From contig OX387193.1 of NCBI GenBank assembly GCA_947561395.2, forward strand, positions 34,608,255-34,672,254: DNA of 64,000 nt. The letters run 5' to 3'. The notes below the pieces were generated by a model. That model did not search any database, was not told where the DNA came from, and saw only the letters and a list, made by a program, of their open reading frames with translations. Made by a program: the position numbers and the translations under genes. Below are positions 15,102 through 40,830 of the stretch, one piece after another. Each line of letters starts with the position of its first letter. Positions within the stretch are counted from its first letter, which is position 1. The stretch is from Buxus sempervirens. Lineage: Eukaryota; Streptophyta; Magnoliopsida; Buxales; Buxaceae.

Positions 15102-15245
15102 TGTATCCGGATACTTAGGCCGGATACAAGTACTCCTTCCTGTATCCGGATACTCATACCGAATACATGTGAGCCTTAGTGTATCCGGTACCATGTACCG
15201 GATACCTTAAGGCCCTTTTTTATCCGGTCTGATATACCGGATACT
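15102..15245 (+). promoter_or_regulatory. TATCCGG palindrome cluster, 5' LTR
   Basis: Four units of the form TGTATCCGG, then 8-9 nt, then CCGGATACA (one arm has a base change). They are spaced about 35-40 bp apart and end about 155 bp upstream of the TATA box. The place and array suggest an upstream promoter module; function is inferred. Confidence 0.75.
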
Positions 15246-15400
15246 TTAAGTTTGCTCAAAATTAGGGTTTTCCGAGAGAAATCACTTGTTACCATCATGT
15301 CCCTCATTAAATGAGGGGAAATCTCGGAAATAACCTTAGGGTTAAGGTTGGGGGGGTTCTAGACATTAAGTTGTGTCTACCAATGACCTTAGCCTTTGCC

Positions 15401-15408
15401 TATAAATA
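15401..15408 (+). promoter_or_regulatory. TATA box of 5' LTR
   Basis: TATAAATA in the context TTTGCC-TATAAATA-GGAGCC. It is the only good TATA match between the palindrome cluster and the conserved R/U5 core, and it is found at the same place in all Tat-type LTRs of the window. Confidence 0.8.
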
Positions 15409-17316
15409 GGAGCCTCCTCCTTGAGCAAATGACACTCAACTCTTGTTTTGAATTCTCGCAAAGAAGAACTCCAAGAGAAGAAGAAAACCGCTGCGGAATC
15501 GCCTCCAGAACTCAGGTAAGCCTCAACTTTTCTTTTTATTTTCTGTCTTTACATTCCTAGATCTAGATCTTTTCTTCTACCTTTCTGTAGTGTAAAGCCT
15601 TGTTTGTATGTGTGGAAATCCTTCCCCGGCTCAAAGTATCTCAAGACTCCCCTAGCCGTAAAACGTGAAGGCGGATCTAGGAGAAACAAGACTGGGGATT
15701 GACCCTAGTGCTAGAACCCATGTAGCATAAGGCCTTTTTGATTGATTGTAAACCGTTCCATATTCAAAGTACCCTTGATTATCTTGAAGAACCGTGTTTA
15801 ACGGGAAGAGAGAACAGAGGGAAACGATAATGGAACGGAACCCTAGGCTGTCTTAGAACCCTATTTGGATGAATATGTATGCATGCTATTGATCTTGTTT
15901 GGTTTTTTTACACTTGCACATACATATCACTATTTTAGCGGGATAGGCTCATATTTGGGGTTTATTGCATTTATTGTGATAAATCTCAAATAAATGGCCT
16001 CAATCAATTCTGGAATGCCTTTTGGACTATTTTTAAAGTATTTGTGTTAATCTTACACAAATCACATATTTGTATCAATTTTCGGATTTGGTTTTTTCTT
16101 CAAGAATGGCTTAGCTTGACAGCACCTGTACCCCTACTTCGGACGCCCATAACTTCATCATCCGGATGAATTTTGGGGCGATTCTAGAACCATGGGAAAG
16201 GTGAGGCTGTCTAGTTTATGTCCACCAAATTTTACAAATTTCTATCTAGCGGATTTTTGACACCTCTCTGGCGAAGTTGAGTGGACAGTTCAGGTTCAAA
16301 TACAAAACTTGTCACTTCGATAGAGAGCCATGTATTCGATTTAAGTCCGATTCAAATGATTTTTGTTTCTAAGTACTCCTTTATGAGTCTATTTTCAAAT
16401 CCAGTTGGTTTCATAATTTTTGGATTTCATTTGAATTATTGGTAGCCGATTTACTCAGAACTGTTCATTTGTACTTTTCTGGGTAAATCTGGGATCTTCG
16501 GGGCCTGTTCGGGTGACCACCCAAGGCACATCCGAAGGGATTTTTGTATGAGGCTAGTTTCTATGGAAATATGGCCATACAAACTTAAATCACACCAAAT
16601 TTCGTGGACTTTTATGTAGTGGATTTTTCTAGACAATTTTCCAAAGTTGCCCACTTACCACTTTTAAAAATCCCCAGCAGCAACTTCAAAGGAGCATAAC
16701 TCCTAGGTTTTTTATCAGAATGAAGTGAAATTTTGCATGAGACTCTAATTTACCCTAATCTTTCAAATGGATTTGGTTTGGTTCAATTTAAAATGATATT
16801 TGAATGATTTCAAGGCAAGTGGCATACTTTTTACTGAATTTTCTGGATTTGATTCAACTTTGTTTTTTGAGCAACTTGTGCTTTGATTTCCATTTTTTGA
16901 GATATTCCAGAAGTGATATTGACATAAGAGAAGATCTAAAATCCATTTGGATCTTCATGTGAATATATCATACACTTGTTCCTTTTTTAAGGCTTTTCCA
17001 TGATTTTTAGCAAGCTTCTTATTTTCTTTTTAGCATGAACATACACTTGGCAACCACTTCGTGTGGATGAATGGGGGTGCCTAACACCTTCCCCCGTTCA
17101 TAATCTAATCCCCTTACCCATCTCTGGATTTGATTTTCAGGTAGGATTATTCTTATCCTAGAATTTGTCTTTTGGCTATTTTTGCTTATTTTTGAACTCT
17201 TTGGTGTCCATTCTCACCTCAAAATCATGAATGGTGGCGACTCTCCCGTTTTTGCATTGAGCCCGTGTGTTGACGGAGGGATGATCATTCCGGTGATTTT
17301 TCCCATGTCTCACAAC

Positions 17317-17334
17317 TGGCGACTCTACTGGGGA
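17317..17334 (+). other. Primer-binding site of element C
   Basis: TGGCGACTCTACTGGGGA begins two bases after the LTR end. It is the tRNA-Arg-type PBS known for Ogre/Tat elements. Its first ten bases recur 82 bp upstream inside the LTR (17,235-17,244). Confidence 0.88.
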
Positions 17335-18670: not shown

Positions 18671-18871
18671 AGGTAAAGCCATGTTCTTTTCATGAATGTA
18701 TGAATTTTGCAAGTATGATGTCCAAGCCCAATTTGGGGCAAGTTTTGAAGGTCAAATTAAGGTGAACATCAATTGGGAATGAAAAAAAAACTAATCGGGT
18801 GAAAATATGAGTCAAAAAGGGCCATTTCGGCAATAACCGCAACTCAGGCCGGTTAATAACAACTCTATTCA

Positions 18872-18975
18872 TATCCGGTATGTATTTCCGGATACAAAGA
18901 CATATGCGTGTATCCGGTTAGGGTGACCGGATACAATAAGGCATATTCTTATCCGGTATATTATACCGGATACGT
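18872..18975 (+). promoter_or_regulatory. TATCCGG palindrome cluster, leader
   Basis: Three units: TATCCGG-TATGTATTT-CCGGATA, GTATCCGG-TTAGGGTGA-CCGGATAC and TATCCGG-TATATTATA-CCGGATA. They are the same motif as in the LTRs and upstream of both antisense genes. No TATA box follows closely on either strand, so this copy may have another role or be a silenced promoter. Confidence 0.7.
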
Positions 18976-19275
18976 TCAAAAAATGCACAAATTGGCTGTT
19001 TAGCCCGAATTTTCAGAATAAAATGCTTAAAACACTGTGGATCATCCTTAGGCACCCCGAAAAGAACATAAGAAATGTTCCCAAAAATACAAAATCAAAA
19101 AAAATAAAATAAAATATTCTTTCAAGATTTAACCTAAGTTTGAAAATCAAAGAGGAAACCAAGGTGTCATATTTTTTGACACCAACTCAACTCAAACATG
19201 TGTCAGTCAAACTTTGGAACTTGAAAACTGAGAAAATTCAGCAAATTTGAAGAAAAAAAAATAAAAAAGAAACCT

Positions 19276-20250
19276 TTAGTTGGTTATTTTTATCAATCAA
19301 ATCAAAACATTTGTGGGACCCTTGGAAGCCCTAGAATATTCCAAGAAACCTTTGGTTGGTTATTTTTATCAATCAAATCAAAACATTTGTGGGAGACTTG
19401 GAAGCCCTGGAATATTCCAAGAAACCTTTGGTTGGTTATTTTTATCAATCAAAACATTTGTGGGACCCTTGGAAGCCCTAGAATATTCCAAGAAACCTTT
19501 GGTTGGTTATTTTTATCAATCAAATCAAAACATTTGTGGGACACTTGGAAGCCCTAGAATATTCCAAGAAATCTTTGGTTGGTTATTTTTATCAATCAAA
19601 TCAAAACATTTGTGGGACACTTGGAAGCCCTAGAATATTCCAAGAAACCTTTCGTTGGTTATTTTTATCAATCAAATCAAAACATTTGTGGGACACTTGG
19701 AAGCCCTAGAATATTCTAAGAAACCTTTGGTTGGTTATTTTTATCAATCAAATCAAAACATTTGTGGGACACTTGGAAGCCCTAAAATATTCCAAGAAAC
19801 CTTTGGTTGGTTATTTTTATCAATCAAATCAAAACATTTGTAGGATACTTGGAAGCCTTAGAATATTCCAAGAAACCTTTGGTTGGTTATTTTTATCAAT
19901 CAAATCAAAACATTTGTGGGACACTTGGAAGCCCTAGAATATTCCAAGAAACCTTTGGTTGGTTATTTTTATCAATCAAATCAAAACATTTGTGGGACAC
20001 TTGGAAGCCCTAGAATATTCCAAGAAACCTTTGGTTGGTTATTTTTATCTATCAAATCAAAACATTTGTGGGACACTTGGAAGCCCTAGAATATTCCAAG
20101 AAACCTTTGGTTGGTTATTTTTATCAATCAAATCAAAACATATGTGGGATGCTTGGAAGCCCTAGAATATTCCATGAAAACCTTGGTTGGTTATTTTTAT
20201 CAATCAAATCAAAAAAATTTTGGGACCCTTGGAAGCCCTAGAATATTCCA
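19276..20250 (+). repeat. 76-bp minisatellite, 13 copies
   Basis: Thirteen nearly identical head-to-tail copies of a unit starting TTGGTTGGTTATTTTTATCA and containing CATTTGTGGGACACTTGG and AGCCCTAGAATATTCCAAGA. The spacing is 76 bp except for one shorter unit. High identity implies recent expansion. Because 76 is not a multiple of three and the unit lacks stops in some frames, it gives long spurious reading frames. The array occupies the same leader position as the different minisatellite of element A. Confidence 0.97.
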
Positions 20251-20460
20251 ACACAAAATCAAAACAACCAAAAAAAAAAAATAACAAAAAAATCTGGATT
20301 GGTGTTCACCTAACCTACTGGTTTACTTATATAGGTGTGTGACTCAAGTTAAATGGAAGCTAACATGTTCTGTTCATTTTTTCCTCAGGTACATTTACTT
20401 TCAACCCAGGTGCACTTATTTGCAGTCATTGCTCCCGTGACCAGATCCAAAGCAAGAGCA

Positions 20461-22600
20461 ATGAATACTGAAGAGAACCAAGCCCAAGCTACTGTCCCCG
20501 CTCAGGACTTTACTCAGCTGCAGGAGCAAGTGGCCGGTCTGGCCAAAATGCTGGGAGACTTACTGGCGGCTCAGGCCCAAGCCCAAAATCAGGCGTCGAC
20601 TTCTAATCCGGCACCGCCACCTCAGGCCTATATTCCGCCTCCGGCTCAGCCCATGCCTGAGCCCATTTCTGAACCAGTCCCTGAGCCCATTATGATCAGG
20701 GAAAATACAGTAGAGTCTGAGAAAGAGCTGGAAAAAGAAAAGGCGAGGGATGAGATGGAAAAGAAAATGCTGCTGAGGATAGAAAGAATCCAGGCAGAGC
20801 TGAAGGAGGTGAAGGGGGGAAGCAACCATGGATGCACCACCTTCGAAGACCTGTGCATGTACCCGGACGTCTGTCTACCGGCTAAGTTCAGGTGCCCAGA
20901 CTTTGACAAGTTTGATGGCACGGGCTGCCCATTGAGCCATTTGAAATTATACTGCGGGGCCCTATCCCAATTTGGCCGGGATGATGGCATACTGATCCAG
21001 CTCTTCCAGAGGAGTCTGACCGGGTCAGCCCTTCGGTGGTTCGCTACAGTGGACCATGGAAGGATCAGGAGGTGGAAGGACTTGGCTGATGCTTTCTTGG
21101 ACCAGTACAAGTTCAACTCGGAGATTGTGCCAGACCGGTACGACATGATGAGGATGACCAAGGGCAAAGATGAGCCAGTACGGCAATACGCCAAGAGGTG
21201 GAGAGAGGCCGCCTCCCAGGTCAGGCCACCTATGCAAGAGCCGGAGATGATCTCCACATTTATGGGCACACTGGGGCAGCCTTTTTACAACCATCTGGTG
21301 GGCCAGATCACCACCAACTTTGCTGCCTTGGTACAAGTGGCGGACCGGATCGAGGAAGGGGTCAGGTCAGGAAGGCTGATAGACTACTCTACTCTGACTG
21401 GGCAGTCTGATTCCTCTGCCTCCATGGCCCAGAAGAAAGGGGCCGGATTTAAAAAGACGGGGGCCCGAAAAGAAGGGGCGGTGAACCTGGTCCAGGCTCC
21501 TCCAGCCAAGAAGCCACTTCATGTGAACATCTCGGCACCCCAACAGGCCCAGCAGGCCCAACAGTTGTACCAGACCCCACTGAATGTCAACTTCTCTCCG
21601 TCTGTGCCAGCTAACACAAGGAGGACCTTTACTAAGGAGGAGCGGGATGCCTGGTTCGCAGCAAGGAAGAACCGAGTCTTCACTCCTATCCCGATATCTC
21701 TGTCCCAACTACTGCCAACCCTGCTGAAAGGGGAATACTTGACTCTGAAGGAGCCTAACCCAAATGCTCCGAAGGGGAGGAATTATGATCCGGCAGCCAC
21801 CTGTGACTTCCACACGGGTGCACCAGGGCACTCTACAGATAACTGCTGGGTGCTGAAGCATGCGGTCCAGGACCTGTTGGACCAGAAGGCTTTGGTCTTT
21901 AACACTGCTGCACCCGCCCCGTCGGGAAATGATATTGGGCAGAACCCTCTGCCATACCACAATGGGGCAGGCCCATCCAACTCCATCACAGCCATATCCA
22001 CTACGAGAAGGGCCTTTGACCCATCTCAGCTTATAGCACCCGTGGGGACCACAGTCCAGGTCCATTTCTTCCAAGAGGAGGACGAAGAGGAGATCAACAT
22101 GGTCTCCGGAAAAAATAATCTTGCTGCTGAGGACATAAGTTCCTCTTTAAACCGGGTCTCATCTCTTATGACCCAGATGAATACTGCAAGGCCCCCATTG
22201 GTCTTCAATTGCAGTCCACCCACTTATTCCCCATCCAAGCCGTCTAAGGCTCCACTGGTCATCAACCTTGACCCCACCAATGCTTCTATCACTTCTTCTG
22301 TCCCCACAAATTCCAAACTTCAACCCCTGGTTGTAAATGTGCAGCCAGCCCAAACTATCCCTAAACCGGCCCATACATCCCGGTCCAAACTCCAGCCATT
22401 AGTGGTTAACATCCCTAAATTAGCCTATTCTAAGGCCGCTGTACCATGGAATTACAGCGAGGGAATCACGGCTACGGTTCCAATGGTTAGAAACCCGAAC
22501 CAGGAGGAGGTGAACCTCATGACGAGGTCAGGGAGATGTGCAGGGGGTGAAGAGAAAGAGAAAGAGACAGAAGTAGAAAAAGAAAAAAAAAGAAAATGAA
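20461..22600 (+). pseudogene. gag region of element C
   Basis: Gag forms the cytoplasmic virus-like particle. Start chosen at MNTEENQAQ, which aligns with MNPTENEANVP in element A. In order it has a Gln/Ala- and Pro-rich part, a Glu/Lys coiled stretch, the gag core (PAKFRCPDFDKFDGTGCP, LIQLFQRSLTGSALRWFAT, WKDLADAFLDQYKFNSEI), a variant knuckle CDFHTGAPGHSTDNC near 21,800, and a Pro-rich tail with repeated PPLV(V/I)N motifs. The C-terminal end is Glu/Lys-rich. Strong similarity to Tat/Ogre gag. Part of a gag-pol with about three breaks overall. Confidence 0.93.
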
Positions 22601-22919
22601 GAAAAAAGAAAACAAAAAGGAAAAAATAAAGTGGAAGAAGACACCCCCCAGGGTGCAGAAAATGAGGCAGCCGACCTCATAAAAATAATAAAAAAAAGTG
22701 AATTTAATCTTGTGGATCAGCTGAGCAAGGTCCCGGCCCAGATTTCAATACTGGGCCTTTTTCTGAATTCCGAAAAGCATAGGGATGCATTGTTAAGGGT
22801 GCTACAGAGTGCACATGTATCCCAGACCATCGATCTAGACCAGCTTGGTAAAATGGTTGGTCAAATCTTATCACATAATGTGATAAGTTTCTCAGAGGGT
22901 GAGATCAGCCCAGGTGGGT

Positions 22920-23265
22920 GTTATCATGTGGACCCTTTGCACATCACTGTGCTTTGTAAGGGCTGCATGATTGCACGGGCTTTAATTGACAACGGGTCGG
23001 CATTAAACGTTTGCCCGTTAATCACTTTTACCAAGTTGGGTCTGGACCAGTCAAGGATCAAACAAAATGGGCGGATAGTTAGGGCTTTTGATAGCTCCAA
23101 GACCCACTCCTTAGGGGAGATTGAACTGCCGGTCACAATTGGGCCGAATATCTTCAACATCACATTTGAAGTGATGGATATACCCGCAGCTTTCAATCTG
23201 CTCCTAGGAAGGCCGTGGATACACTCGGCTAGGGCAATACCATCCACGCTCCACCAAAGAGTGAA
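22920..23265 (+). pseudogene. Protease domain of element C
   Basis: Retropepsin-type aspartic protease that would mature Gag-Pol. Visible are the active-site motif IDNGSALNVCP at about 22,981 (D-N-G-S in place of D-T/S-G) and the C-terminal flap/ALLGR-like motif NLLLGRPWIH. D-N-G-S forms are common in Tat/Ogre elements. Confidence 0.88.
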
Positions 23266-23459
23266 GTACATAAAAGGGCAAAGGGTGATAAAAGTCCTAG
23301 CCGAAAACTTGGTGCCGCCCATCATGTCACCTGATGTACCCTTGATCAATGTGGACCTAACTGTCGACAAGATTGCATTCCACTCATTTCAATTTGAGGC
23401 GGTAAATTACATACCTGGGGGGTGTGAGAAAAAGAAGGAAAAGGGGACCACTGCGGAAA

Positions 23460-23615
23460 AGATGGTCAAGAAAGTGATGGAGAAATACCACTTTCACCCG
23501 GGGAAAGGCCTGGGGATCAATCTGCAGGGGATGGTGGAGCCAATCACGGCTAAGAAACTGATCCCCAAGGTAGGGTTGGGCTTCAAGCCCAGAGGCTGGA
23601 GAAGAAGGAAACATG
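23460..23615 (+). pseudogene. G-patch-like region between protease and RT
   Basis: The sequence KYHFHPGKGLGINLQGMVEP with PKVGLGFKPRG resembles a G-patch (G-x-G-L-G-x-x-x-x-G), often found in Tat/Ogre polyproteins between protease and RT. G-patches bind RNA or helicases. Its role in the element is not established. Confidence 0.65.
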
Positions 23616-24559
23616 AAGAAGGGGAGAGCAGAAGCAGAGGAAAACTCCCGCATCTGAGGGTGAACTTTCCAAAACCCTCCTATATAATCCAAATTTCTCC
23701 TCCCATGGACCAGTCCAAGCCTCCATACCGAAACATTAACCCATTTCAAAAGCCTTTGGTTTCGGCCCTACAACCCTATAACCCTTCTCCAATATTGGGA
23801 GTAGCAGATGGGCCTGGGCCACAGCCCGAGCAGCAGTTGGACTATGCTGAAGATGTTGGGGCTTTCTTTGCCATGACTGAAGGTGAAAAGACTGATGGTG
23901 ACATGGACCTGCCGTTCATTGACTGGGCCACAGTGAAGATTCCAGAAGAGGTCATTTCTGGATTGGGCCCCGTAGCAGAAAAGGGCAGTACCCACCCGGT
24001 GATGATGGCATCAGATGCTGGGCTTGAGGAGCAGACTTTCCCTATTTCCCCTGCTCCCCAAAATTTTGTAATGAACAATTGGGAAGAAACTCCCCTTACC
24101 TTTGAAGCGGCGTTAGTTCAGCAAACTGACGCGGCTTCCAAAAAAAAAAACTCCAATAGTGGAATGCCATTTCCCTGAAGGTTCTAATGGGCCTTCGTCT
24201 TCAGGGGAATTATGTTTAGAAGGCCCACAAAAAACCCAAAAAGATTTTTCTATTTTTTCTAGAAAATTTAATTTTTTCAAAAAGGTCCAAACCACTTATG
24301 AACCATATAATCAGACCGAATTGGACCAGGTTGAATATGACTTCGACTTCGAGCTCGACTTTGACCTTATGGGGGTCGAAGAAGAGATCGAGGTCGAAGG
24401 AGAAGACGTTCCAAAAGAAATTGAATACCAATTGGAACATCATGAAAAGGGGGTCCAACCTAATATTGAGGAGACCATATCCATAAACCTTGGGACAGAA
24501 GAGGACCAAAAAATTGTGAAAATCGGGTCATGCTTGTCTGATGTGCAGAAAAATGAAAT

Positions 24560-25330
24560 GTCACAGTTCTTGGCAGATTACAAGGATGTGTTCGCTTGGT
24601 CGTATCGGGACATGCCAGGGTTGGACACTGACATGGTGGTGCACAAGTTGCCAATTTTACCAGGGGTTAAGCCGATTAAGCAGAAGCTGAGAAGATTGAA
24701 GCCAGAATGGACCTTGAAGGTCAAGGACGAAGTGGTCAAACAATTTCAAGCCAGATTTTTGGCAGTCTCTACGTACCCTGAGTGGCTCGCAAACATAGTG
24801 CCGGTACCAAAGAAAAACGGGAAAGTCAGAATGTGCGTGGACTATAGAGACTTGAACAGGGCAAGCCCAAAGGACGATTTTCCACTTCCACACATCGACA
24901 TTCTGGTCGATAATACTACGGTACATAGCCTGTTCTCTTTTATGGATGGGTTCTCGGGATATAATCAGATCAAGATGGCTAAGGAGGATCAAGAAAAAAC
25001 GGCATTTATCACACCTTGGGGTACATTCCACTACACAGTCATGCCATTTGGGCTTAAAAACGCTGGGGCAACATACCAGCGGGCCATGACTGCACTATTT
25101 CATGACATGATCCATAAGGAGATGGAGGTCTACGTGGATGATATGATTGCCAAATCATGCAAAGAGGAGGACCACTTGATCAATCTGAAGAAAGTGTTTG
25201 ATCGGCTCAGGAAGTATAGTCTACGGCTTAACCCGGCTAAGTGCGTCTTTGGGGCTACATCAGGGAAGTTACTGGGGTTTATAGTGAGCCGAAGAGGAAT
25301 TGAAATTGACCCGGCTAAAGCCAAGGCCAT
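24560..25330 (+). pseudogene. Reverse transcriptase domain of element C
   Basis: All core RT blocks are recognisable: VPVPKKNGKVRMCVDYRDLN, the FPLPHIDILVDN loop, FSFMDGFSGYNQIKMA, TFHYTVMPFGLKNAGATYQR, and the catalytic YVDDM at about 25,131. The thumb/connection has GKLLGFIVSRRGIEIDP. It would copy element RNA into DNA in the particle. The Tat-lineage match is strong. Confidence 0.93.
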
Positions 25331-25539
25331 AATTGAAATGCCAGCGCCCAGAACCGAGAAGGAGGTTCGTGGTTTTCTCGGGAGGATTCAATACATAAGC
25401 CGGTTCATAGCACAGCTCACTGCTATCTGTGAACCAATTTTCAAACTTTTGAGGAAAGATAACCCGACGGTCTGGAATGAGGACTGCCAGTAGGCATTTG
25501 ACACAATAAAGAGGTATTTGCTGAACCCACCTGTGCTAG

Positions 25540-25940
25540 TGCCACCAACTCCAGGAAGACCACTGATCCTGTACTTGTCAGTGTTGGAAACGTCAATGGG
25601 ATGTGTCTTGGGGCAACATGATGAGACTGGTAGAAAAGAAAGGGCAATTTACTATCTGAGTAAAAAATTCACGGAATATGAAGCCAAATACTCACCATTG
25701 GAAAAGACTTGCTGTGCTCTATTGTGGGCCACTCAGAGGCTAAGGCATTATTTCCTTAGTCACTCCACACTATTGATATCCCGGATGGACCCGCTGAAGT
25801 ATTTATTTGAGAAACCGGCACTGACTGGCAGGACGGCAAAGTGGCAACTGCTACTGTCCGAGTTTGACCTCACATACATCACCCAGAAGGCGATCAAGGG
25901 TCAAACCATAGCTGATCACCTGGCTGCACATCCTCTACCA
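25540..25940 (+). pseudogene. RNase H domain (standard) of element C
   Basis: The domain follows RT, with RPLILYLSVLETSMGCVLGQ, YYLSKKFTEYEAKYSPLEK and the tail KAIKGQTIADHLAAHPL. In Tat elements this first RNase H is thought to act as a connection-like domain, and the catalytic job passes to the second copy. Confidence 0.85.
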
Positions 25941-26004
25941 GAATATCAACCCTTGAAGACCAACTTTCCAGATGAGGCAATTCTGTACACTGAAGAGGAG
26001 GACA

Positions 26005-26400
26005 GTGAGAGTTCTTGGCAGATGTTCTTTGATGGGGCCGCCAATATGAATCGGAACGGAATAGGGGCAGTCTTGGTTAAACCAGATGGTTCACACATCC
26101 CGATTGCAGTAAAGCTGAGATTCCAGTGCACCAATAACATAGCAGAATATGAGGCATGCATAATTGGATTGCAAGCAGCCATGGATCATGGAGTAGAGGA
26201 ACTTGACGTATACGGGGATTCGAGTCTTATCATCTTCCAAACAACTGGGGAGTGGAAAACCAAGGATCACAAATTGATCCCCTATCACCAGTATTTGGAA
26301 GAAATAAGCACAAATTTCACTCGAATTTCCTTCAACTATATGCCAAGGGCCAAGAATCAGTTCGCAGATGCTCTAGCAACCTTGGCTTCAATGGTCAGCA
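26005..26400 (+). pseudogene. Second (archaeal-type) RNase H of element C
   Basis: MFFDGAANMNRNGIGAVLV carries the first Asp, NNIAEYEACIIGLQAA the Glu, VYGDSSLIIFQT the second Asp, and NQFADALATLASM the last Asp, so the catalytic set looks complete. A dual RNase H is the hallmark of the Tat lineage and is the main reason for the classification. Confidence 0.9.
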
Positions 26401-28683: not shown

Positions 28684-30401
28684 CTAATCTCTGTCCCCTA
28701 GCCGCTCCTCAAGCTCCCGAATCCGAGCAGCCTGAGCCGCGATAACCCCAGAAGCCCCCTCTGCAGCGGGATCACTCAGGAAGGAAATGACCTCATCTGA
28801 AAGGGCCTGCCTGATCCGCATACTCCTAAGGCTGGCCAAAGTATCCTGGTACTTCTGCCGGATCATACGGACCTCGAAGCGACGGGCCTGCCTTTGCTCC
28901 TCCAGCTTCTCTTCCACGGCAATACGGCGTGAGATCTGCTCCTCAAGCTGCCTCTCCAGATAAGTGCCCCGTATCCTAAGCTCCTGGGCCTCTCGTACCC
29001 ATATCTGCTGAAGCCGCTTATGAGAAGCCCGCTCGGATTCTAGAATGTCCTCATAGGTGGGAGCCAAGACTACAGGAGGATTTTCGGGTACTGGTGCCTG
29101 ACTCTGTATCTGCTCCTTAATCCAGAAAGGATAATCCTTCACATGGGCTTCTGAGAAGACCGGGCCACGCATAAAGCAAACATAGGACCACTCCCTCATC
29201 AACCAGGTATTCAGCTTCATGGTATCCGGAGAAAGGGGCCCAAGACGATCCTCATACCCACTTGGGATGATAATCCCCTGGGTCGCTCGGAACTGACGAA
29301 GGACCCGCAGAGGAAGATAAAGCACTGCATGTCTCAGGCCAGCCAGAATCAGAAAGTTGCGGTCTCGAAAGCTAATCACCGTCTCCGCATTAGGCTGATA
29401 AGTACCAGGCCATCTCACCTGGTCATCCTGAAGCGAGCCCAAGAAAGTGAACCAGCCCTGTTTGCCCCCTGGAATATCAGGGCACCCCCTGTTGCTCATC
29501 AAGAGGGGAACTTTTAGACTCGGGAAGAAGTGTCGATTGATCTCTTCAATCTGGCTCAAATGATCAAGTAGCCAAAGCTGCAAAGGAAGAGAGATATGTC
29601 AGCACATTGTTAAAAAAAAAAAAAGCAAAAAAAAAAAAGGGCAAAAAGAAAGCCAAAAAGCACAAAAAAAAAAACAAAAAGAAAAAAATTTACCTGCAGG
29701 ATCTGGGCACATGCTAGGAAGCATTTCGACTTCCTATTGTAGCAGTCAGTCAAGGCCTGATACATCCCAGCCAAAATCATAGGGGCCAACCTCTCCCGCT
29801 CCCTAACCTGGCATATCACTGAGATCAAGGCCAAGTCCACCTCGTCATCCTCCCGGGGGAAAAGTAACTGGTTGACCACAATCAAGGTCAAGGCATTGAA
29901 CCGGGCCTCCTTATCTTCCCCCCTCAAAAGCTTCTCAGTCAAAAAGGCCTTAGATAGGGTCAAAAGGGTGTCAGAATCCCCCAGGTCCTTCTTCCCTATG
30001 CCCAAAAATGTAGAAGCTTCCTTTTTGTAACTGGGCCTAAGAGGTGGATTCACCACTTTCTCATCAAACCTCAAGCCCAGGATGGTTTCCACCTCCTCAA
30101 TGGTTGGGGTCATCTCATGGTTCCCGAAACGGAACAAGTTGAGGTCAGGAACCCAATGACCAATCATGGCCTCTATAATCTCCCACCTGAAGGGAACCTT
30201 GGGAATAAGCAGGATGTGGCCTAGATTAGTAGTACCCCATCTCCTCTCCTCATCTAGGGTCATAGAGTTAACCCACCTTGTGTAAAAGGAATCCACAGGG
30301 TTGTACCTAGTGAGATTTGGGGGTTTTGATCTAAAAGGTTGTTTTGCAGGGAAGGCAGTATGGACAGATAGTAATGGGGCAGAAAATGATCCGGATTCCA
30401 T
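28684..30401 (-). CDS. Antisense PMD protein 1 (two apparent exons)
   Basis: Element-borne gene, opposite to gag-pol. Start chosen at MESGSFSAPLLSVHTAFP (30,401); a longer upstream frame has no ATG. Two coding segments are separated by about 116 bp with GT and AG borders in phase (about 29,693-29,578). The N-terminal 250 or so residues match the plant mobile domain (aminotransferase-like, PMD): DSFYTRWVNSM, GHWVPDLNLFRFGNHEMTPT, IEEVETILGLRF, then LQLWLLDHLSQIEEINRHFF. The C-terminal third is a Glu/Arg/Gln-rich coiled coil (ERASHKRLQQIWVREAQEL and ARIRELEERLGDRD). PMD domains occur in the host MAIN/MAIL proteins and in MULE and Ty3/gypsy elements; those host proteins act in silencing. Function in the element is unknown. 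The frame looks open. Confidence 0.8.
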
Positions 30402-30510
30402 TGGATGTGATGGGAGCAAGCTAGAACTCAAGAGGAGGAAGAAAAAGGCGAAAAAGGGGGTTTCTAAACACAAAAACTCGGAAAAAATGCTCAAATCCCG
30501 AGGCTGGTTG

Positions 30511-30520
30511 CATTTATAGC
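30511..30520 (-). promoter_or_regulatory. TATA-like box of antisense gene 1
   Basis: On the minus strand this reads GCTATAAATG, about 110 bp upstream of the chosen ATG and immediately downstream of the TATCCGG palindrome cluster. The arrangement repeats that of the LTR promoter. Confidence 0.6.
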
Positions 30521-30530
30521 ATCTTTTAAC

Positions 30531-30673
30531 GTATTCGGTAACTCAGACCGGATACAAAAGGCTTTATTAATATCAGGATAAGTATACCGGATACAAAAGA
30601 TGCCATGAGTATCCGGTATGACATACCGGATACAAAGACCAATCAATGTATCCGGTATGTCAGACCGGATACC
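30531..30673 (-). promoter_or_regulatory. TATCCGG palindrome cluster upstream of antisense gene 1
   Basis: Four units, among them GTATCCGG-TATGACATA-CCGGATAC and GTATCCGG-TATGTCAGA-CCGGATAC. The same motif is in the LTRs and leader of this element. It ends about 10 bp from the minus-strand TATA-like box. Confidence 0.75.
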
Positions 30674-30871
30674 AAGAAAAAATGCAAAAAAAAAGAACTA
30701 AGGTTGAAAAATCCGAATTTTTTACCTGTTTTACCTGCTTACATGTCATATTTGCAAGAAATTGGAAACAAAAGATGTACAAGACAAGAGAGAATGAATA
30801 AAAATATTCTTTTATATATAAATCTCATTCGTACAAGTGATAATGGAAAAAACAGGAATCCTAATCTACTG

Positions 30872-33800
30872 CTACTGTGCAGGATCATCCCCGCGACCTC
30901 TGCCTCGTCCTCCTCTACGACCTCTCCCCCGAGATGATCGGCGCCTGTAGTAGGACAGTAGACGCTCCGCCATGTAGCGTGGTCTCCGTCCTATGAAGGA
31001 CTGAAGCTGGTACTCGATGCAGTAGTCCGATGTATCAGGGGAAGGGACAGGGACAGAATCAGAGGAAGCCTCTGGCTCCACAGCAACCGGCTCGACCGGG
31101 CCTGCAGCTACAGTAGCCTCCACTCCCGCAGATCCAGATGGCCCAGCAGCATCAGAGGAAGGACCCGGGGCAGAAATATCTGGGCCAATAGAAAAATTAG
31201 AACATTGAAGTACCCGGATAAACCCAAAGAAAAAAAAAACTTACCAAGGACCTCAGGAGCAAGGTCAGGAACCGCCATAGGAGATGAAGTGTAACGCCCC
31301 GGATCCGAGTCACATGAAAAACCCGTAACTCGTCTCCAGAGGTTATTATAAAACACAGGATCGCAATATCAGAGTGAAGGAAAAACATGAATACAACAAA
31401 AACTATATAACAGAGTGCGCTAAAATAATCCCAAACGAAAATAAACTCACATGACCAAGTAACTACCCGCAAGTATCGTCCTCTCCAGGAGCAGCTGAAA
31501 ACAAAACAAAACAATACGGAATGAGATATGAATATCCCAGTGAGCAGCACATGCATGCACAAATACATTTATTTCAGTTCTAAAACATGCCACGATTATA
31601 ACCATGTACAATGACGATAATACGCATATTCCGAATAAGCCGACTAAACTTCAATAATCCAATTCATATCAGTGCGGGAAAACCATCAGGTAAGTCAAAC
31701 AATAACAATCTGTTTCCAATCCCGAAGAATGCGATAAAATAAAGATTAACTGACAACAACATAGCGAATAACCATAATTTCGTATCTCAAGATGTAATTC
31801 CAAATACACCAATGTCATATAGCACAAACTCTTCTCATAACCATGCCCACGCCTCCAAATGTATATCCGGCCTACTCAGGGTTTCGGATATTGAAATGAC
31901 TGCGTCATCCAATGCAGGCCTACTCCCCGGGTTTCTGCATTGACAACCAGACCAACTCAGGGTTCCTGGCTGCTCTACACCGGCGGGAGGTACAATACCC
32001 AATAATCGGTAAACAATATTCCATGAACCATAAATACCAACAAACCAGCGACTAAAACATATCACGTCAAAACAAATCAAGTACCAACATTGGTCAATGT
32101 CATGACTATCGTTTAGTTGATAAATTAAACATGCCAAGTAGACACTCCACACCTCCATGTACACAGTTCCGGCCTACTCAGGGTTTCGGATACTCTGAAA
32201 TGACGGCCTACTCAGGGTTTCGTCATCCAATGCAGGCCTACTCCCCGGGTTTCTGCATTGACAACCAGGCCTACTCAGGGTTTCTGGCTGCTCTACACCG
32301 GTCGTGGCAACACACAAGGCCATGCAATTTCAACAACCAACAATAACATCACATTACTAAGCTTAGACTCTGGATCCAGGACAAGCTAGACCAAAACAGT
32401 AAACATCGTATAATCTCGATTTCAATATCAAAACAAACCATTCATTTCTACATCATGTAATTACTCATCACAATTCATCACCTGTCCCTCTGGACCAAGC
32501 AGTGCCTCAAGTACATTCGGTACTTTCTCATTTCCATAACACAAGTCATATGAAAGTAAAACTCAATCCATTCATACCAAAGAAAACCATTCAATACGTA
32601 TAAAGTTTCCAACAAGTGAAACCAGAAATACAAGAACTTCTCAATCAAAGCAGTGTATAGAATAAGGAAAAGTGACTGGTAACTCTTACTAGTTCGGTGT
32701 CCGGCACAATACTCATAAGTAACCTAAACCCAACTTGAAACTCATAAGATGTTCACAAAATTTTCCTCTATTAATTTCATAGGCAAAATGGTTTCCCAGG
32801 TTCCTAACCAAGTGAATAGTGAAGTGGTTTAACCCCTAAGAAGTGCAAATACTCTTGGTCAAATCAGAAATTCCATTTCGGTAAGCAAAATAGGTCTGCC
32901 GCTCACCTATCGAGGTGGGCGCGAGGTGAGCGCCGGTCGGCGGTGAAGAAAACGGGCAAAATCGACCTGCCGCTCACCCGACACTAGGTGAGCGCGAGAT
33001 GGGCGTGAGATGGGCGTGAGGTGGGCGCGAGATTCGCGCGAGATGGGCGCCTTGTTTTCTACTTCGCGCGAGATGAGCGCGAGGTGGGCGCGAGATCGGC
33101 GGTAGGTCATTTTTAACAGGGCGCCTACCTCCGAGGTGAACGCCGGTGAGCGCGAGGTGAGCGGATACCCCCTGTAGTTTTCATTTCTCTGTTATTTTGA
33201 GATCTACATGACTGGCCGGTTTGTGAAGGTCTGTAACTACTCCAGTACACTCCTAATACTCCCAGAAGACTTCCCAACCATATTTGAAATTAATCTAAAC
33301 ACTTTCATTTTTCAATTAAAACTTCAATCCGGAGACTCTGTTCATGCAACTTTCCGAAAAACCAGAAAAACAGAAAACATCATACTATCACTAAATATTC
33401 AAACCATGCATCAGAATAAGCTCGAGAAAACCCAAAACACAAAACCCAGTTATAAACCAGTGCTACTCACCGTATGCGCTTAATCCCAGAACAACAGCTT
33501 CTTCCCCATTCGGCCGATCGCGATTTCCGGGTGCGCGAGAAGATGAAATGGTAGCCGAACAACTCCTCTGCTCGCGAGAGAGATAACCCGCAGAAATCCG
33601 ACTCCAATAAACTCCTAGCAACTCTTGCGGTTCTCATCTCTTCCCAGCGAAACCCTAATCGCCACAGTAGCCGCCCTAATTTCAGAGCAACAACATTCCC
33701 CCAAAACCCCGAAAATTTATATCAGTTACCTATTTATACACCGCGAGGGTTTAACCTAATTCACCATTTACCTTGGGAATCCCCTTTCTACCCCTCCTTA

Positions 33801-36569
33801 GTGTAGGGTTTTCCCGGATTTTAACCATTGACCCATTTTTTATTTATTTCCGGTCCGAATATGACCTACGTATAAATATTTCCACCTCATTTTCTTTAAC
33901 CCTAATGACCACAAATTTCTAGCAATAATAAAGTTGATTTAACCTGTACATACATCCATATGTGCATATACTTTTATTTTATCTACTGTTATTATTTGTT
34001 TATTTTTATTCTATTATTATTATTTCATTTTATTATTTTATTATTTATTATTTCTTTTCTACTCAAAACTGGGGTCTTACATGAAGAGTCAGCAGGGACA
34101 GTCTCGGCAGGCAGGGGGACTGCCTCAGGTACAGCCGAATCCTCAACCACGACAGCCTCAACTCCTGCAGCCACAGAAGGCTGGACAGCAGTAGCAGGAG
34201 GACTAGGAGCTGTAATATCTGGTCAACAGAAAAATTCAGAAATTGAAATATCAGGATAAACCAAAGAAGTAAAGCTATACTCACCAGGAGTATCCGCCAT
34301 GGGATCCGCAGGAGCAGCTACCACCGGGTCTGCAGATGGGACATCCACAGGATCCGCAACCCGAGCAGGAGACGGGTCAGGAATGGGAAAATCATGCTCG
34401 AAGGCAGTATCCTGATCTGGGACCGAGCCCTGCACAAGGCAAACAAGCACATCAGAATAGCAGAAACAAGAAAATGAAAGAAATGAAAATATGAGAAGGC
34501 GAGATACCTGTCTAGACTGGAGCTCAGCAACTAAGGCCTCCAGCTCCCTGATCCGGGCATCCCGCTGGGCCACGACCGCATCGTGCTCCGCGATCATATC
34601 ATCGATCACAGCCCGCTGGCTCTCGAACCGGTCCCGAATGGTATTCAGCTCGTGTACCTGCCAGCAAGAACAGAAGAAGGGTCAGAAATGCATAAGGGAG
34701 AAAAAGGGAATAAAAATAGGAAGAGTACAAGGTTTACCGTGTCCTCATGAATCCAGATACGGATCCCGCCGATCTCTGTCACACCGGCACGAGTGGGTCG
34801 ATCCATCAAACATCCTATAGATACCCACTGGAACCACTCGTCGTAATCTCTAGCTACTGTGAGCCCCTCTGCATCCAGGAAGTGATCAAACTGATCAACA
34901 TCAAAACCTGGGAGGAGTGTGTCAGGACCCACAGGAGGAGGAGGGACGGGGATGCGAAGTGCGCTGGTGTGCTGGAAGTACAGGCGCTCTCCTAAGTACA
35001 TCACCCTACCAAGCCTCCCGAGGAAGCACTGGTAGGGCTGACGTCGTCGATCTCTATCGAAGGAATCCTGTACCACCATCTCACGAGCCACTCCAACATC
35101 CACGTCATCAAATCGGGACAGGAGGAGCTGCAAAAAAGGAAACAGTCAGGTACAGTCAAGATACAGGAAAGGAAATAAAAGAAAGATAGAGGACTTACAT
35201 CAAATCGGCGGGCACGGTCTAAGTGCACCCGGGCAGTGCGAGGCTGGCTCCTATCAGCATCTCTAACCTGGGCCGACCATCGCAGGGCCACAGGGAAATC
35301 CGCAACCTCAGGAACCGGGGAGGGGCGGAAGAAGGTCATATAGGTGTACATGAACACCTAGCAAAAGAAAAATCAGCCAAGAAAATTTGAAAGCCTAAGG
35401 AATTAAACCAGAAAGATGAATTCAATACCTGCAGAATCTGCCAGAAGAACCGGCTGCTGACTCCATCACCCCTCGGGGATGCCAGGCCTCGAACCGCTCG
35501 GCACAACCCGGCTAGGATTGTCCCATAGATGAGCCGACCCCATGCTAGCTGGCGGGTCTGATGGAAATCTCTCAAGGCGTCCAAAAAGAGCGGACTGACG
35601 CCAGTCGTATCCTCCGGAAAAAAGCAGCTCCCAAGCATCAACAGGAAAACATGTCGGAAGATCGTTGCAAAGGCTGCATCCTCCACAGAGACGGTCGCAT
35701 GTCTCCTCTCAAAATGACGAGCCAGACTCTCTCGTAGCCAACTAATGGAGAGCCGGCCACTCCGCCCATCCCAAGCAGCAGGTGGTAGGGCCTGATATCC
35801 CAGAAGGAGGCTGATGTCCTCCGCAGAAGGTCGCTCCAAGACAAGGGTCCGCCCCGTCAAGGGAATGCCGGTAATCATCACAAAATCCGAGAGGCGGATC
35901 CCCAGCTCCACGTCCGGCAGATGGAACGACTGAGTCTCTGGGAAATATCTCTCCATCATGGCAAAAATGAGTGGACGGTCGGCTCTGAATGATGGAATGC
36001 TGAGGAAGTGATCCAGGTGGCACCTCCCAAACTCCCGCCTGAGTGCCGGGGAAAGCGACTGAGCTAACTCACTAAATCTGCCCCAGCTACCCCGCAAATG
36101 GGAAGAATGATATGGGAGCGGCACATCTGCCCTGATGCACATGGAGGGGTGGCTATCCAAGCCACGGAGGAGCTCTGTATCATGAACAGAAGCCCTCAGC
36201 TCCTCAAAGACCCCTGCCAGAGCTACAGCAGTACCCTCCTGAGCCGTATCTCTGGCTCTGCCTCTGCCTCTGCCACGGCCTCTCTCGCCCTCAAGGGCCT
36301 AATCGTGAGCTCTGCCTCGCCCTCTGCCTCGACCTCGAGCCGGTGCAACCACGGGCTAAATTCCAAGAGCAGTGTGAAGATTTGTGTAGGACGGAAATAG
36401 AAGGAGGGAAGAGAAAATTTTGAAAGCCTACCTCAGCAGAGCTCTCTCGGGAGACATCTAGCGGCTCCGACAGGGTGGCGCTGGAACTCGCCTCTGTCCG
36501 AGCCCGCGAAGTGGAGGGCTGATCAGCTGGGTCAGCCTCCTCTCTAACTCGGGAACGACTCCTAGCCAT
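30872..36569 (-). CDS. Antisense PMD protein 2 (multi-exon, split by a solo LTR)
   Basis: Second antisense gene of element C, upstream of gene 1. It starts with ATG at 36,569 (MARSRSRVREEADPADQP) and ends RGRGRRGGRGRGRGDDPAQ at 30,872. About eight coding segments with GT/AG borders can be followed on the minus strand. The main one (about 36,300-35,430) carries a PMD: FHLPDVELGIRLSDFVMITG, IPLTGRTLVLERPSAED, HFERRHATVSVEDAAFAT. Others give VFMYTYMTFFRPSPVPEV, a coiled coil (RDARIRELEALVAELQSRQ) and Pro/Ala/Val-rich and RG-rich tails suited to nucleic-acid binding. A TGTAACGCC-family solo LTR (31,290-34,081) lies inside one exon. Besides that the gene has about one break. Its relation to gene 1 is distant: shared architecture, diverged sequence. 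Confidence 0.72.
31290..34081 (+). mobile_element. TGTAACGCC-family solo LTR inside antisense gene 2
   Basis: The 2.79-kb LTR runs from TGTAACGCCCCGGATCCGAG to TGGGGTCTTACA, flanked by a perfect 5-bp duplication TGAAG (31,285-31,289 and 34,082-34,086). It contains repeated GGCCTACTCAGGGTTTCGG motifs (31,870-32,290), a partial 300-bp internal duplication, and a GC-rich array (32,895-33,170). No coding region remains. It inserted after element C, so it is younger than about a million years if that dating holds. The same family is present at 49,204-53,520 and 53,844-56,077. Confidence 0.95.
32895..33170 (+). repeat. GC-rich short-unit array in solo LTR
   Basis: Degenerate units such as GAGGTGGGCGCGAGATGGGC and GAGGTGAGCGCC recur on a 10-11 bp theme. 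The matching place in other LTRs of the family holds different motifs (CGCTCGAGCGACT near 50,740; CGCCGAG/CTCGCGCC near 54,530). Confidence 0.75.
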
Positions 36570-37862: not shown

Positions 37863-37865
37863 GAC

Positions 37866-37873
37866 TTATAAAG
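37866..37873 (-). promoter_or_regulatory. TATA-like box of antisense gene 2
   Basis: The minus strand reads GGCTTTATAAGTCGC, directly downstream of a two-unit TATCCGG cluster. It lies 1.3 kb upstream of the ATG, so it is less certain than that of gene 1. Confidence 0.5.
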
Positions 37874-37879
37874 CCGCGT

Positions 37880-37944
37880 GCATCCGGTAACTCAGACCGG
37901 ATGCACACAAACTCATTCTTATCCGGATGTACATACCGGATACC
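37880..37944 (-). promoter_or_regulatory. TATCCGG palindrome cluster upstream of antisense gene 2
   Basis: Two units: GCATCCGG-TAACTCAGA-CCGGATGC and TATCCGG-ATGTACATA-CCGGATA. In the first both arms changed together (GTATCCGG to GCATCCGG and its mate), which keeps the pairing. Confidence 0.7.
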
Positions 37945-38125: not shown

Positions 38126-38156
38126 TTGTGCTATAATTCTTACTATTTTCTCAAAA

Positions 38157-38377
38157 TCCTATTTTTCTCTTGAAATCCACCTCACAGCCACGAGAGCTCT
38201 GTGGAATTTGGGACAACCTTGGGAAATGTGCCTGGTCAAAAGGATGATATCCACTCAATTTTCGACTTGGTTTGATAAAAAAATCAGTTTTTCAAGAAAA
38301 TCCTATTTTTGGGCTTAAAATCCACTTCATAGCCACGAGAGCTCAGTGGAATTTAAGAACTCTTGGAGAGATGCCCC
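38157..38377 (+). repeat. Two-copy direct repeat near the 3' end of element C
   Basis: Two diverged copies (from 38,157 and 38,302, period about 145 bp) share CCTATTTTT, AAATCCAC and AGCCACGAGAGCTC followed by GTGGAATTT. It lies in the 3' untranslated region before the PPT. Confidence 0.7.
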
Positions 38378-38515
38378 CTTAAAGTTAGGGCTTTTTGGCA
38401 AATCTCCACTCAAAAATTGTTTTCTACAAACTTGAATTGAACCGAGCAAATCATGCTCAAGGGAATGCAATTTGGGCTTGTCTACTCTTTGCAGCTCACT
38501 GCTTCGCAGCTCCCA

Positions 38516-38529
38516 CAAAGAGGGGCAGT
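38516..38529 (+). other. Polypurine tract of element C
   Basis: AAAGAGGGGCAG lies immediately before the 3' LTR. It would prime plus-strand synthesis. Confidence 0.75.
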
Positions 38530-40830
38530 TGTAGACATCCCAAATTGCACAAATAATCATCAAAAATCATTATCTCCTGGAAAGCCAGCACAGAAACTGA
38601 AGAAAATAAACTTTTACCTGTATCCGGATACTTAGGCCGGATACAAGTACTCCTTCCTGTATCCGGATACTCATACCGGATACATGTGAGCCTTAGTGTA
38701 TCCGGTACCATGTACCGGATACCTTAAGGCCCTTTTTTATCCGGTCTGATATACCGGATACTTTAAGTTTGCTCAAAATTAGGGTTTTCCGAGAGAAATC
38801 ACTTGTTACCATCATGTCCCTCATTAAATGAGGGGAAATCTCGGAAATAACCTTAGGGTTAAGGTTGGGGGGGTTCTAGACATTAAGTTGTGTCTACCAA
38901 TGACCTTAGCCTTTGCCTATAAATAGGAGCCTCCTCCTTGAGCAAATGACACTCAACTCTTGTTTTGAATTCTCGCAAAGAAGAACTCCAAGAGAAGAAG
39001 AAAACCGCTGCGGAATCGCCTCCAGAACTCAGGTAAGCCTCAACTTTTCTTTTTATTTTCTGTCTTTACATTCCTAGATCTAGATCTCTTCTTCTACCTT
39101 TCTGTAGTGTAAAGCCTTGTTTGTATGTGTGGAAATCCTTCCCCGGCTCAAAGTATCTCAAGACTCCCCTAGCCGTAAAACGTGAAGGCGGATCTAGGAG
39201 AAACAAGACTGGGGATTGACCCTAGTGCTAGAACCCATGTAGCATAAGGCCTTTTTGATTGATTGTAAACCGTTCCATATTCAAAGTACCCTTGATTATC
39301 TTGAAAAACCGTGTTTAACGGGGAGAAAGAACAGAGGGAAACGATAATGGAACGGAACCCTAGGCTGTCTTAGAACCCTATTTGGATGAATATGTATGCA
39401 TGCTATTGATCTTGTTTGGTTTTTTTACACTTGCACATACATATCACTATTTTGGCGGGATAGGCTCGTATTTGGGGTTTATTGCATTTATTGTGATAAA
39501 TCTCAAATAAATGGCCTCAATCAATTCTGGAATGCCTTTTGGACGATTTTTAAAGTATTTGTGTTCATCTTGCACGAATCACATATTTGTATCAATTTTC
39601 GGATTTGGTTTTTTCTTCAAGAATGGCTTAGCTTGACAGCACCTGTACCCCTACTTCGGACGCCCATAACTTCATCATCCGGATGAATTTTGGGGCGATT
39701 CTAGAACCATGGGAAAGGTGAGGCTGTCTAGTTTATGTCTACCAAATTTCACAAATTTCTATCTAGCGGATTTTTGACACCTCTCTGTCGAAGTTGAGTG
39801 GACAGTTCAGGTTCAAATACAGAACTTGCACTTCGACGGAGCGCCATGTGTTCGATTTACGTCCGATTCGAATGATTTTTGTTTCTAAGTACTCCTTTAT
39901 AAGTCTATTTTCAAATCCAGTTGGTTTCATAATTTTTGGATTCCATTTGAATTATTGGTAGCCGATTTACTCAGAACTGTTCATTTGTACTTTTCTGGGT
40001 AAATCTGGGATCTTCGGGGCCTGTTCGGGTGACCACCCAAGGCACATCCGAAGGGATTTTTGCATGAGGCTAGTTTCTATGGAAAGATGGCCATACAAAC
40101 TTCAATCACACCAAATTTCGTGGACTTTTATGTAGTGAAGTTTTCTAGACAATTTTCCAAAGTTGCCCACTTACCACTTTTAAAAATCCCCAACAGCAAC
40201 TTCAAAGGAGCATAACTCCTAGGTTTTTTATCAGAATGAAGTGAAATTTTGCATGAGACTCTCATTTACCCTAATCTTTCAAATGGATTTGGTTTGGTTC
40301 AATTTAAAATGATATTTGAATGATTTCAAAGCAAGTGGCATACTTTTTACTGAATTTTCCGGATTTGATTCAACTTTGTTTTTTGAGCAACTTGTGCTTT
40401 GATTTCCATTTTTTGAGATATTCCAGAAGTGATATTGACATAAGAGAAGATCTAAAATCCATTTGGATCTTCATGTGAATATATCATACACTTGTTCCTT
40501 TTTTAAGGCTTTTCCATGATTTTTAGCAAGCTTCTTATTTTCTTTTTAGCATGAACATACACTTGGCAACCACTTCGTGTGGATGAATGGGGGTGCCTAA
40601 CACCTTCCCCCGTTCATAATCTAATCCCCTTACCCATCTCTGGATTTGATTTTCAGGTAGGATTATTCTTATCCTAGAATTTGTCTTTTGGCTATTTTTG
40701 CTTATTTTTGAACTCTTTGGTGTCCATTCTCACCTCAAAATCATGAATGGTGGCGACTCTCCCGTTTTTGCGTTGAGCCCGTGTGTTGACGGAGGGATGA
40801 TCATTCCGGTGATTTTTCCCATGTCTCACA
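38530..40830 (+). repeat. 3' LTR of element C
   Basis: It is 2,301 bp and nearly identical to the 5' LTR, with the TATCCGG cluster at 38,619-38,763, a TATA box at 38,918 and the same termini. GTACT follows at 40,831. The 3' copy has intact CCGGATAC arms where the 5' copy has one changed base. Confidence 0.97.
38619..38763 (+). promoter_or_regulatory. TATCCGG palindrome cluster, 3' LTR
   Basis: Four units, as in the 5' LTR, all with matching arms. Confidence 0.75.

Follow-up and report, generated by a model that had tools for sequence, protein, structure and literature searches.

Spaced palindromes of fixed geometry and family-specific letters at the long terminal repeats, leader and antisense genes of an Ogre-like retrotransposon in Buxus sempervirens

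Does a long terminal repeat (LTR) retrotransposon place one and the same control module at its sense and its antisense transcription units? The question is raised by a stretch of 64,000 nt of Buxus sempervirens DNA (GCA_947561395.2, contig OX387193.1, positions 34,608,255-34,672,254 of the forward strand), hereafter the window, which holds an Ogre-like insertion, element C (15,013-40,830; target duplication of 5 bp), with two antisense genes for proteins with a plant mobile domain (PMD). An earlier note had placed one palindromic motif at five sites of element C and had proposed a shared control module. We find that the palindromes keep an exact geometry at all five sites, and that they are one version of an array built on the core CCG-N11-CGG, other versions of which, with other letters, are present in seven further LTR-like sequences of the window.

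Element C contains 17 palindromes of 27 bp each, of the type TGTATCCGG-N9-CCGGATACA, in five arrays (of 4, 3, 4, 2 and 4 palindromes):

15102-15245, plus strand: LTR array; four palindromes, at 15102, 15141, 15180 and 15219, 155 bp before the sense TATA box
18870-18974, plus strand: leader array; three palindromes, at 18870, 18909 and 18948, with a 39-bp step
30530-30673, minus strand: array at antisense gene 1; four palindromes, at 30530, 30569, 30608 and 30647
37879-37944, minus strand: array at antisense gene 2; two palindromes, at 37879 and 37918, with a 39-bp step
38619-38762, plus strand: 3' LTR array; four palindromes, at 38619, 38658, 38697 and 38736

One consensus holds at all five places, and all 12 steps between neighbouring palindromes of an array measure exactly 39 bp (all nine if the 3' LTR copy is left aside); the 12-bp linkers vary while the step stays constant. 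In the first palindrome at antisense gene 2 a change in one arm is paired with a change in the other (TGCATCCGG / CCGGATGCA). The array ends given in the earlier note differ from ours by 0-2 bp only; its description of a module of 2-4 palindromes with an 8-9 nt centre is right as to the numbers (two, three or four) and needs correction as to the gap, which in element C is always 9 nt.

The whole window was scanned with both 9-mer arms, allowing a gap of 5-12 nt and scoring matches out of 18 letters. Scores of 15-18 were obtained only at the five sites of element C and at 58915, 58954 and 58993 in another LTR-like sequence (15-17 over 58915-59019; a further site there, at 59136, scores 14), and the maximum in five Markov-shuffled windows was 14. 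The exact pattern with a gap of 6-11 nt has four matches in the window, compared with none in 100 shuffles. The motif had been said to be absent from the coding regions of element C, and this was borne out: the best arms there score 14 (20858 and 29738), a level that shuffles also reach. Isolated N11 cores do occur in the coding part, both CCG..CGG (21020, 21465, 26038) and CGG..CCG (20864, 23130, 27501, 35215), with an outer flank that matches at no more than three of five positions.

The position of the arrays relative to TATA-like boxes differs from site to site. Two such boxes lie beside the antisense arrays:

30513-30518, minus strand: TATA box of antisense gene 1; distance to the array 11 bp
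37865-37870, minus strand: TATAAG, a TATA-like box that we assign to antisense gene 2; distance to the array 8 bp

A minus-strand TATA-like box within 12 bp is found for 1.1% of window positions. The statement that a TATA-like box follows the array is thus apt for the antisense genes; in the element C LTRs the TATA box is not close, lying 155 bp beyond the array, and no TATA box was found near the leader array on either side. What the earlier note had proposed as a control module common to sense and antisense transcription is accordingly upheld in part: the same palindrome recurs, with the same 39-bp step, at the two antisense genes as well as in the LTR and the leader, and the antisense arrays stand 8-11 bp from TATA-like boxes. 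A promoter role for every site does not fit the leader, 1.3 kb separate the box at antisense gene 2 from the first open stretch that we attribute to the gene, and the module is no peculiarity of element C. Judged from the sequence, the promoter-module reading appears to fit best at antisense gene 1, fairly well at antisense gene 2 and in the LTRs, and badly at the leader; that the module controls transcription is what we infer from these positions.

Arrays of related design were located in seven other LTR-like sequences, named here by the position at which they start, and in the leader of element A, a second Tat-type element. The LTR-like sequences at 6035, 10937 and 51592 were recognised by similarity to the element C LTR, those at 43999 and of element B (14343) by such similarity in parts, that at 47355 by similarity to 43999, and for that at about 59745 the start and the TATA box were the only criteria; none of the seven is demonstrated as a member of an LTR pair.

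809-909, plus strand: array in the element A leader; half-sites CCG CGG CCG TGG TCG CAG CCG CGG in exact 14-bp register, TACGG type; each of the three misfit half-sites is one C-to-T or G-to-A change away
5830-5930, minus strand: array in the LTR-like sequence from 6035; 14-bp register, TACGG type
11045-11131, plus strand: array in the LTR-like sequence from 10937; 14-bp register, TACGG type, partly decayed
13943-14075, minus strand: array in the element B LTR from 14343; AACCG..CGGTT type
43153-43415, minus strand: array in the LTR-like sequence from 43999; AACCG..CGGTT type, six CCG-N11-CGG, irregular unit spacing
47945-48048, plus strand: array in the LTR-like sequence from 47355; GCACCG/CCA type, steps of 39 and 38 bp
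51694-51794, plus strand: array in the LTR-like sequence from 51592; eight alternating CCG/CGG half-sites, spacers all 11 bp
57416-57520, minus strand: second array in the putative LTR from about 59745, toward its far end; AGCCGAC/ATCCGAC type, 39-bp step, no TATA box within 400 bp
58915-59162, minus strand: array in the putative LTR from about 59745; ATCCGGCATA type, stepped at 39 bp except for one gap of 104 bp, and TATAAA 10 bp away at 58899-58904

The last two arrays may mean that a single LTR holds two versions of the motif.

A search that ignores the letters and asks only for 27-bp palindromes at a fixed step ranked 39 bp at the top, with 15 pairs, 6 of them outside element C (20 shuffles: mean 0.35 at 39 bp, maximum 4 at any period). 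The core itself was counted in one kilobase of each of the seven LTR-like sequences and in the element A leader (655-1083), with 500 shuffles as reference. These eight regions contain 20 copies of CCG-N11-CGG and 9 of CGG-N11-CCG, the shuffle means being 0.28 and 0.29 and the maximum 3 for each; the count was not blind, the spacing having been noticed by eye first, which is partly allowed for by the highest count at any spacer in any of the 500 shuffles, namely 4. Counts per region (CCG-N11-CGG, then CGG-N11-CCG) were as follows:

Element A leader: 2 and 1
LTR-like sequence 6035: 2 and 2
LTR-like sequence 10937: 1 and 2
Element B LTR, 14343: 3 and 0
LTR-like sequence 43999: 6 and 1
LTR-like sequence 47355: 1 and 0
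LTR-like sequence 51592: 4 and 3
Putative LTR 59745: 1 and 0

Among the 64 trinucleotides tested for enrichment at a spacer of 11, only CCG (ratio 18) and CGG (8.6) stand out, the next reaching 3.2. Besides 11 bp, the spacers between units are often 21-22 bp, and in the LTR at 14343 also 9, 13, 36 and 92 bp. Spacers of 11 and 21-22 bp are near one and two helical turns, which would point to a protein on DNA.

While the spacing is kept, the letters change between families. The leaders of elements A and C are 84.7% identical over 10-430, and near the position at which element C has its ATCCGG array element A has one of different letters, the TACGG array in strict 14-bp register. The LTR-like sequences at 43999 and 47355 share 71% identity before the array, 31% within it and 50% after it, gap columns being counted in all such comparisons and these two arrays differing in length. 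For the other pairs the values before, within and after the array are:

51592 and 6035: 86, 74 and 71%
51592 and 10937: 70, 62 and 65%
C and 51592: 60, 40 and 47%
B and 43999: 6, 42 and 67%, the LTR starts hardly aligning
C and B: 16, 41 and 48%, the LTR starts hardly aligning

In 31 units selected from the 39-bp type, with the two element C LTR copies both counted, 46 of the 62 half-sites read CCG; of the remaining 16, 13 differ from it by a single C-to-T or G-to-A change, a pattern of decay such as methylated cytosines would give.

The minus-strand LTR of element B is seemingly split (14343-13628 and 10593-8747), its two parts being separated by an RNase H-type ORF (open reading frame; 12703-13389) and a nested LTR-like sequence that runs from 10937 to about 12722. 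Element A (1-4341, gag at 2327) is seemingly cut by the minus-strand LTR-like sequence 4340-6035.

What kind of element carries the five arrays? The insertion of element C is clean, with GTACT at either flank and LTRs of 98.4% identity; a purine-rich tract precedes the 3' LTR. A stretch resembling a primer-binding site, TGGCGACTCTACTGGGGA, stands 2 bp after the 5' LTR and may match tRNA-Arg; a primer-binding site complementary to tRNA-Arg is an Ogre trait. The domain set of Ogre/Tat elements is matched in Pfam (Retrotrans_gag, RVT_1, RT_RNaseH, RVT_3, rve), as is the extra PMD ORF of Ogre elements, here in the form of two antisense ORFs.

15013-17314, plus strand: 5' LTR; TATAAA at 15401-15406, GTACT duplication at 15008-15012
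20353-22599, plus strand: gag ORF, Retrotrans_gag (Pfam)
22631-24178, plus strand: G-patch ORF (Pfam), between gag and the reverse transcriptase
24159-27746, plus strand: pol ORFs; reverse transcriptase at 24159-25493, RNase H, a second RNase H-like domain (RVT_3) and integrase at 25518-27746
28684-30494, minus strand: antisense gene 1; ORF 29610-30494 (DUF7745/PMD) and ORF 28684-29583 (helical tail)
34028-36569, minus strand: antisense gene 2; PMD ORF 35336-36160 and neighbouring open stretches
38530-40830, plus strand: 3' LTR; TATAAA at 38918-38923, GTACT duplication at 40831-40835

Passages of the literature count the G-patch among the commonest atypical domains in plant Gypsy elements (PMC9289625), report PMD in 57% of Ogre elements (PMC6317226) and describe the clades PMD-A1 and PMD-A2 as encoded exclusively by Gypsy elements (PMC5418596). 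Between the leader array and gag, a 76-bp tandem repeat in 13 copies occupies 19267-20251, and the equivalent place of element A (about 1095-1850) has a different tandem repeat. Between the two antisense genes, 32089-32670 is an inverted copy of 54965-55548 (82-94% identical), probably another mobile element.

In antisense gene 1, ORF 29610-30494 matches DUF7745 (E 2.5e-19) and PMD (E 1.5e-12), and ORF 28684-29583 gives a weak continuation of DUF7745 (E 0.095, profile positions 217-277 after 18-203), from which one might guess that the two ORFs are two exons of one gene. ORF 35336-36160 of antisense gene 2 matches PMD (E 8.2e-16), and the open stretches 36294-36569, 34648-35145, 34226-34681 and 34028-34222 may belong to the same gene. 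Behind the PMD part of both genes there are, as judged by eye, heptad-like helical stretches on the minus strand (28687-29598 and 34226-34681); the coiled-coil match of the latter is weak (E 0.0029, below the cut-off). Such stretches could permit the antisense proteins to form dimers.

The reading that we prefer, and to which we assign an even chance as a whole, is that the arrays are operator sites, at which a dimeric, sequence-specific factor would read two facing CCG half-sites across 11 bp. In element C one such factor would occupy the LTR and leader arrays as well as those of both antisense promoters, and its binding would couple full-length transcription to the expression of the antisense PMD genes. 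That the arrays are operators on DNA at all is quite likely. The factor probably co-evolves with the element, because the spacing is fixed, the letters beside CCG are family-specific and one consensus is common to the five sites of element C; its preference for the letters beside the core would then differ by family. An element-borne factor is favoured over one host factor because there is a single consensus in element C, because its relatives have different letters, and because the symmetry extends beyond the core, and we hold encoding by the element to be nearly an even matter, if slightly on the doubtful side. The natural candidate is the antisense PMD/DUF7745 protein that the element itself encodes, since the sites stand at its own promoters and such genes have so far lacked an explanation; it would act on its own family in an autoregulatory or anti-silencing manner, as VANC does. 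The sequence shows how the arrays are built, that they recur, where they stand and that the antisense ORFs match PMD; from this we infer protein binding, dimerisation and transcriptional control, and we hold it somewhat less likely than not that PMD itself is the binder. In its boldest form the proposal becomes a self-specific code of Ogre-type elements, in which family versions of the CCG-N11-CGG arrays at LTR, leader and antisense promoters would be read by a dimer of the family's own PMD protein that activates or un-silences only that family; this we regard as rather unlikely.

Several observations weigh against this proposal. The LTR of element A lies outside the window, and its leader is tied to the TACGG family by the motif only. 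In the five LTR pairs other than 43999 and 47355 the array is not clearly the least-alike stretch, and U3 regions are described as generally variable between families in passages of PMC10794571. The counted stretch holds a single strict N11 core in the LTR at 47355 and again in that at 59745, and the LTR at 43999 also has spacers of 6, 39 and 46 bp. With no TATA box at the leader array and 155 bp between the LTR array and its box, the sites need not act alike, and the distance of 1.3 kb from the box to antisense gene 2 means that an intron or a long leader must be assumed. DNA binding by PMD finds no support here: the AlphaFold model of the PMD, made from a two-row alignment, is unusable (mean predicted local distance difference test, pLDDT, 41.1), and no solved structure related by sequence to either PMD ORF was found at E up to 1. 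Finally, the Arabidopsis PMD proteins MAIN and MAIL1 act in silencing, that is, in the opposite direction, and in passages of PMC9899485 their contact with chromatin is given as unknown.

The CCG-N11-CGG core is common to the families examined, as would be expected if one class of host protein bound it, and the LTRs and antisense promoters might have collected enhancer sites for host transcription factors of a family that recognises a CCG half-site. Plant LOB/AS2-type proteins are an example of host factors with such a half-site. Plant LTRs do use host factors, as ONSEN uses heat factors (passages of PMC12859917), and variation of U3 regulatory motifs between families (PMC10794571, in part) suits this explanation as well. 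A single host factor nevertheless leaves unexplained why the flanks are family-specific and yet symmetric and the same at the five sites of element C, and why the letters switch at corresponding positions; a literature search on a LOB-type spaced site was uninformative, with no 'LOB domain' among the matches listed. We consider the host factor unlikely, though by no means negligible. A host might also use the arrays as handles, that is, as CG/CCG-rich targets of DNA methylation or of silencing proteins and not as activator sites. CCG is a CG and CHG methylation context, and most of the half-site decay consists of C-to-T or G-to-A changes; such a role would hardly explain, however, what preserves the 11-bp spacing, the symmetry and the letters common to the five sites, and we judge such handles very unlikely.

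Two further explanations need no DNA-binding protein. The palindromes might form RNA hairpins in the genomic RNA, with a part in packaging, dimerisation, processing or small-RNA production, and the leader is a usual place for packaging signals. Eleven of the 14 folded arrays beat dinucleotide shuffles at z < -3 and ten at z < -4 (47355 at -3.3), the four arrays folded from element C, its 3' LTR copy not being among them, giving z of -5.0 to -8.9. Any palindromic array folds, however, and three of the 14 fold weakly (z -1.5, -1.8 and -2.1 for 6035, 43999 b and the element A leader) while keeping core and spacing. Pairing peaks at the half-sites and is lower at the centre in most families, the 58.9-kb array excepted, a pattern that is partly built in where units were chosen by their core; the unit spacers of 11 and 21-22 bp have no evident RNA reason, and there is no Rfam match in the window at gathering scores. 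After this folding we judge RNA hairpins as the reason for the arrays very unlikely. Neutral tandem duplication of a short unit, palindromic by chance, would agree with the 39-bp arrays that Tandem Repeats Finder reports at the element C LTRs, at the leader and at 58913-59019, and with the frequency of tandem repeats in such elements (PMC11963269, in part). It does not account for linkers and centres that differ while half-sites and step persist, or for the same geometry in arrays with other letters, and appears very unlikely.

Returning to operator arrays read by a co-evolving factor, we note that antisense PMD genes, tandem repeats and, in passages of PMC10794571, variable U3 motifs are already known in such elements. 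Literature searches, as far as the matches listed and the texts returned extend, did not bring to light any account of arrays like these in plant LTRs: both mentions of palindromes in the text obtained of PMC11963269 are one reference title, passages in PMC12477314 concern insertion preference, those in PMC10794571 deal with how satellites form, with a PCR method or with a reference, and those in PMC8656106 hold nothing relevant. Within the literature thus covered, what appears new is a spaced-palindrome code common to LTR, leader and antisense promoters, its geometry fixed and its letters family-specific. The pol ORF that encodes RNase H and integrase had no relative in viral contigs, and the LTR-start pattern had no viral matches and two in bacterial genomes, which we took as chance. 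Ogre elements commonly carry antisense PMD genes, while host PMD proteins act in silencing; a family-specific operator shared by the LTR and the PMD promoters would tie these genes to the control of their own element. If the boldest form of the proposal is true, an LTR retrotransposon would possess a sequence-specific anti-silencing system, which would suggest a role for the PMD proteins of Gypsy elements.

How, then, does element C compare with known systems? In Grande, gene23 is said, in the title of a paper, to have its own promoter. Like element C, Retand has antisense ORFs between pol and the 3' LTR (PMC6317226; PMC11963269, both in part), and a regulatory role has been proposed for its antisense TRP28 protein from predicted DNA binding (PMC11963269); a cis-module common to LTR and antisense promoters, as in element C, was not found for Ogre/Retand in the passages of these two papers. 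With the upstream activating sequence of yeast GAL4, which is given as CGG-N11-CCG in a passage of PMC6790369, the arrays share two CGG-type triplets and the 11-bp gap. They differ from it in that their orientation is mixed, mostly CCG-N11-CGG (20 as against 9), in a plant element, and in that a Pfam scan of 14 ORFs and open stretches, of which element C contributed 12, showed no zinc-cluster protein. MAIN and MAIL1 resemble the proposed system in linking PMD proteins to a promoter motif (PMC7156037, PMC9899485, both in part) and differ from it in repressing transposons; a link to their DOWN motif, of which CATGCAGTTT is an example, was rejected, this sequence being unlike the palindromes.

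The closest parallel that we draw is to VANC, an anti-silencing protein encoded by the Mu-like VANDAL elements of Arabidopsis, which, in passages of PMC5735166, binds a short motif repeated in the non-coding parts of its own family, related families differing in it. Element C shares with VANDAL the repetition of a motif in non-coding parts of the element, here observed within this window, and letters that differ between related families and change together. The trans-factor is element-encoded in VANDAL and only a candidate in element C, where the antisense ORFs matched PMD/DUF7745 or nothing clear and gave no match pointing to VANC in Pfam, the only comparison made. VANDAL is a DNA transposon with a 9-base motif, element C an LTR retrotransposon with a spaced palindrome of fixed 11-bp gap, and binding and demethylation, which belong to VANC, would be predictions for element C. 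Should the operator reading hold, element-encoded recognition that co-evolves with its target would extend from VANDAL DNA transposons to LTR retrotransposons.

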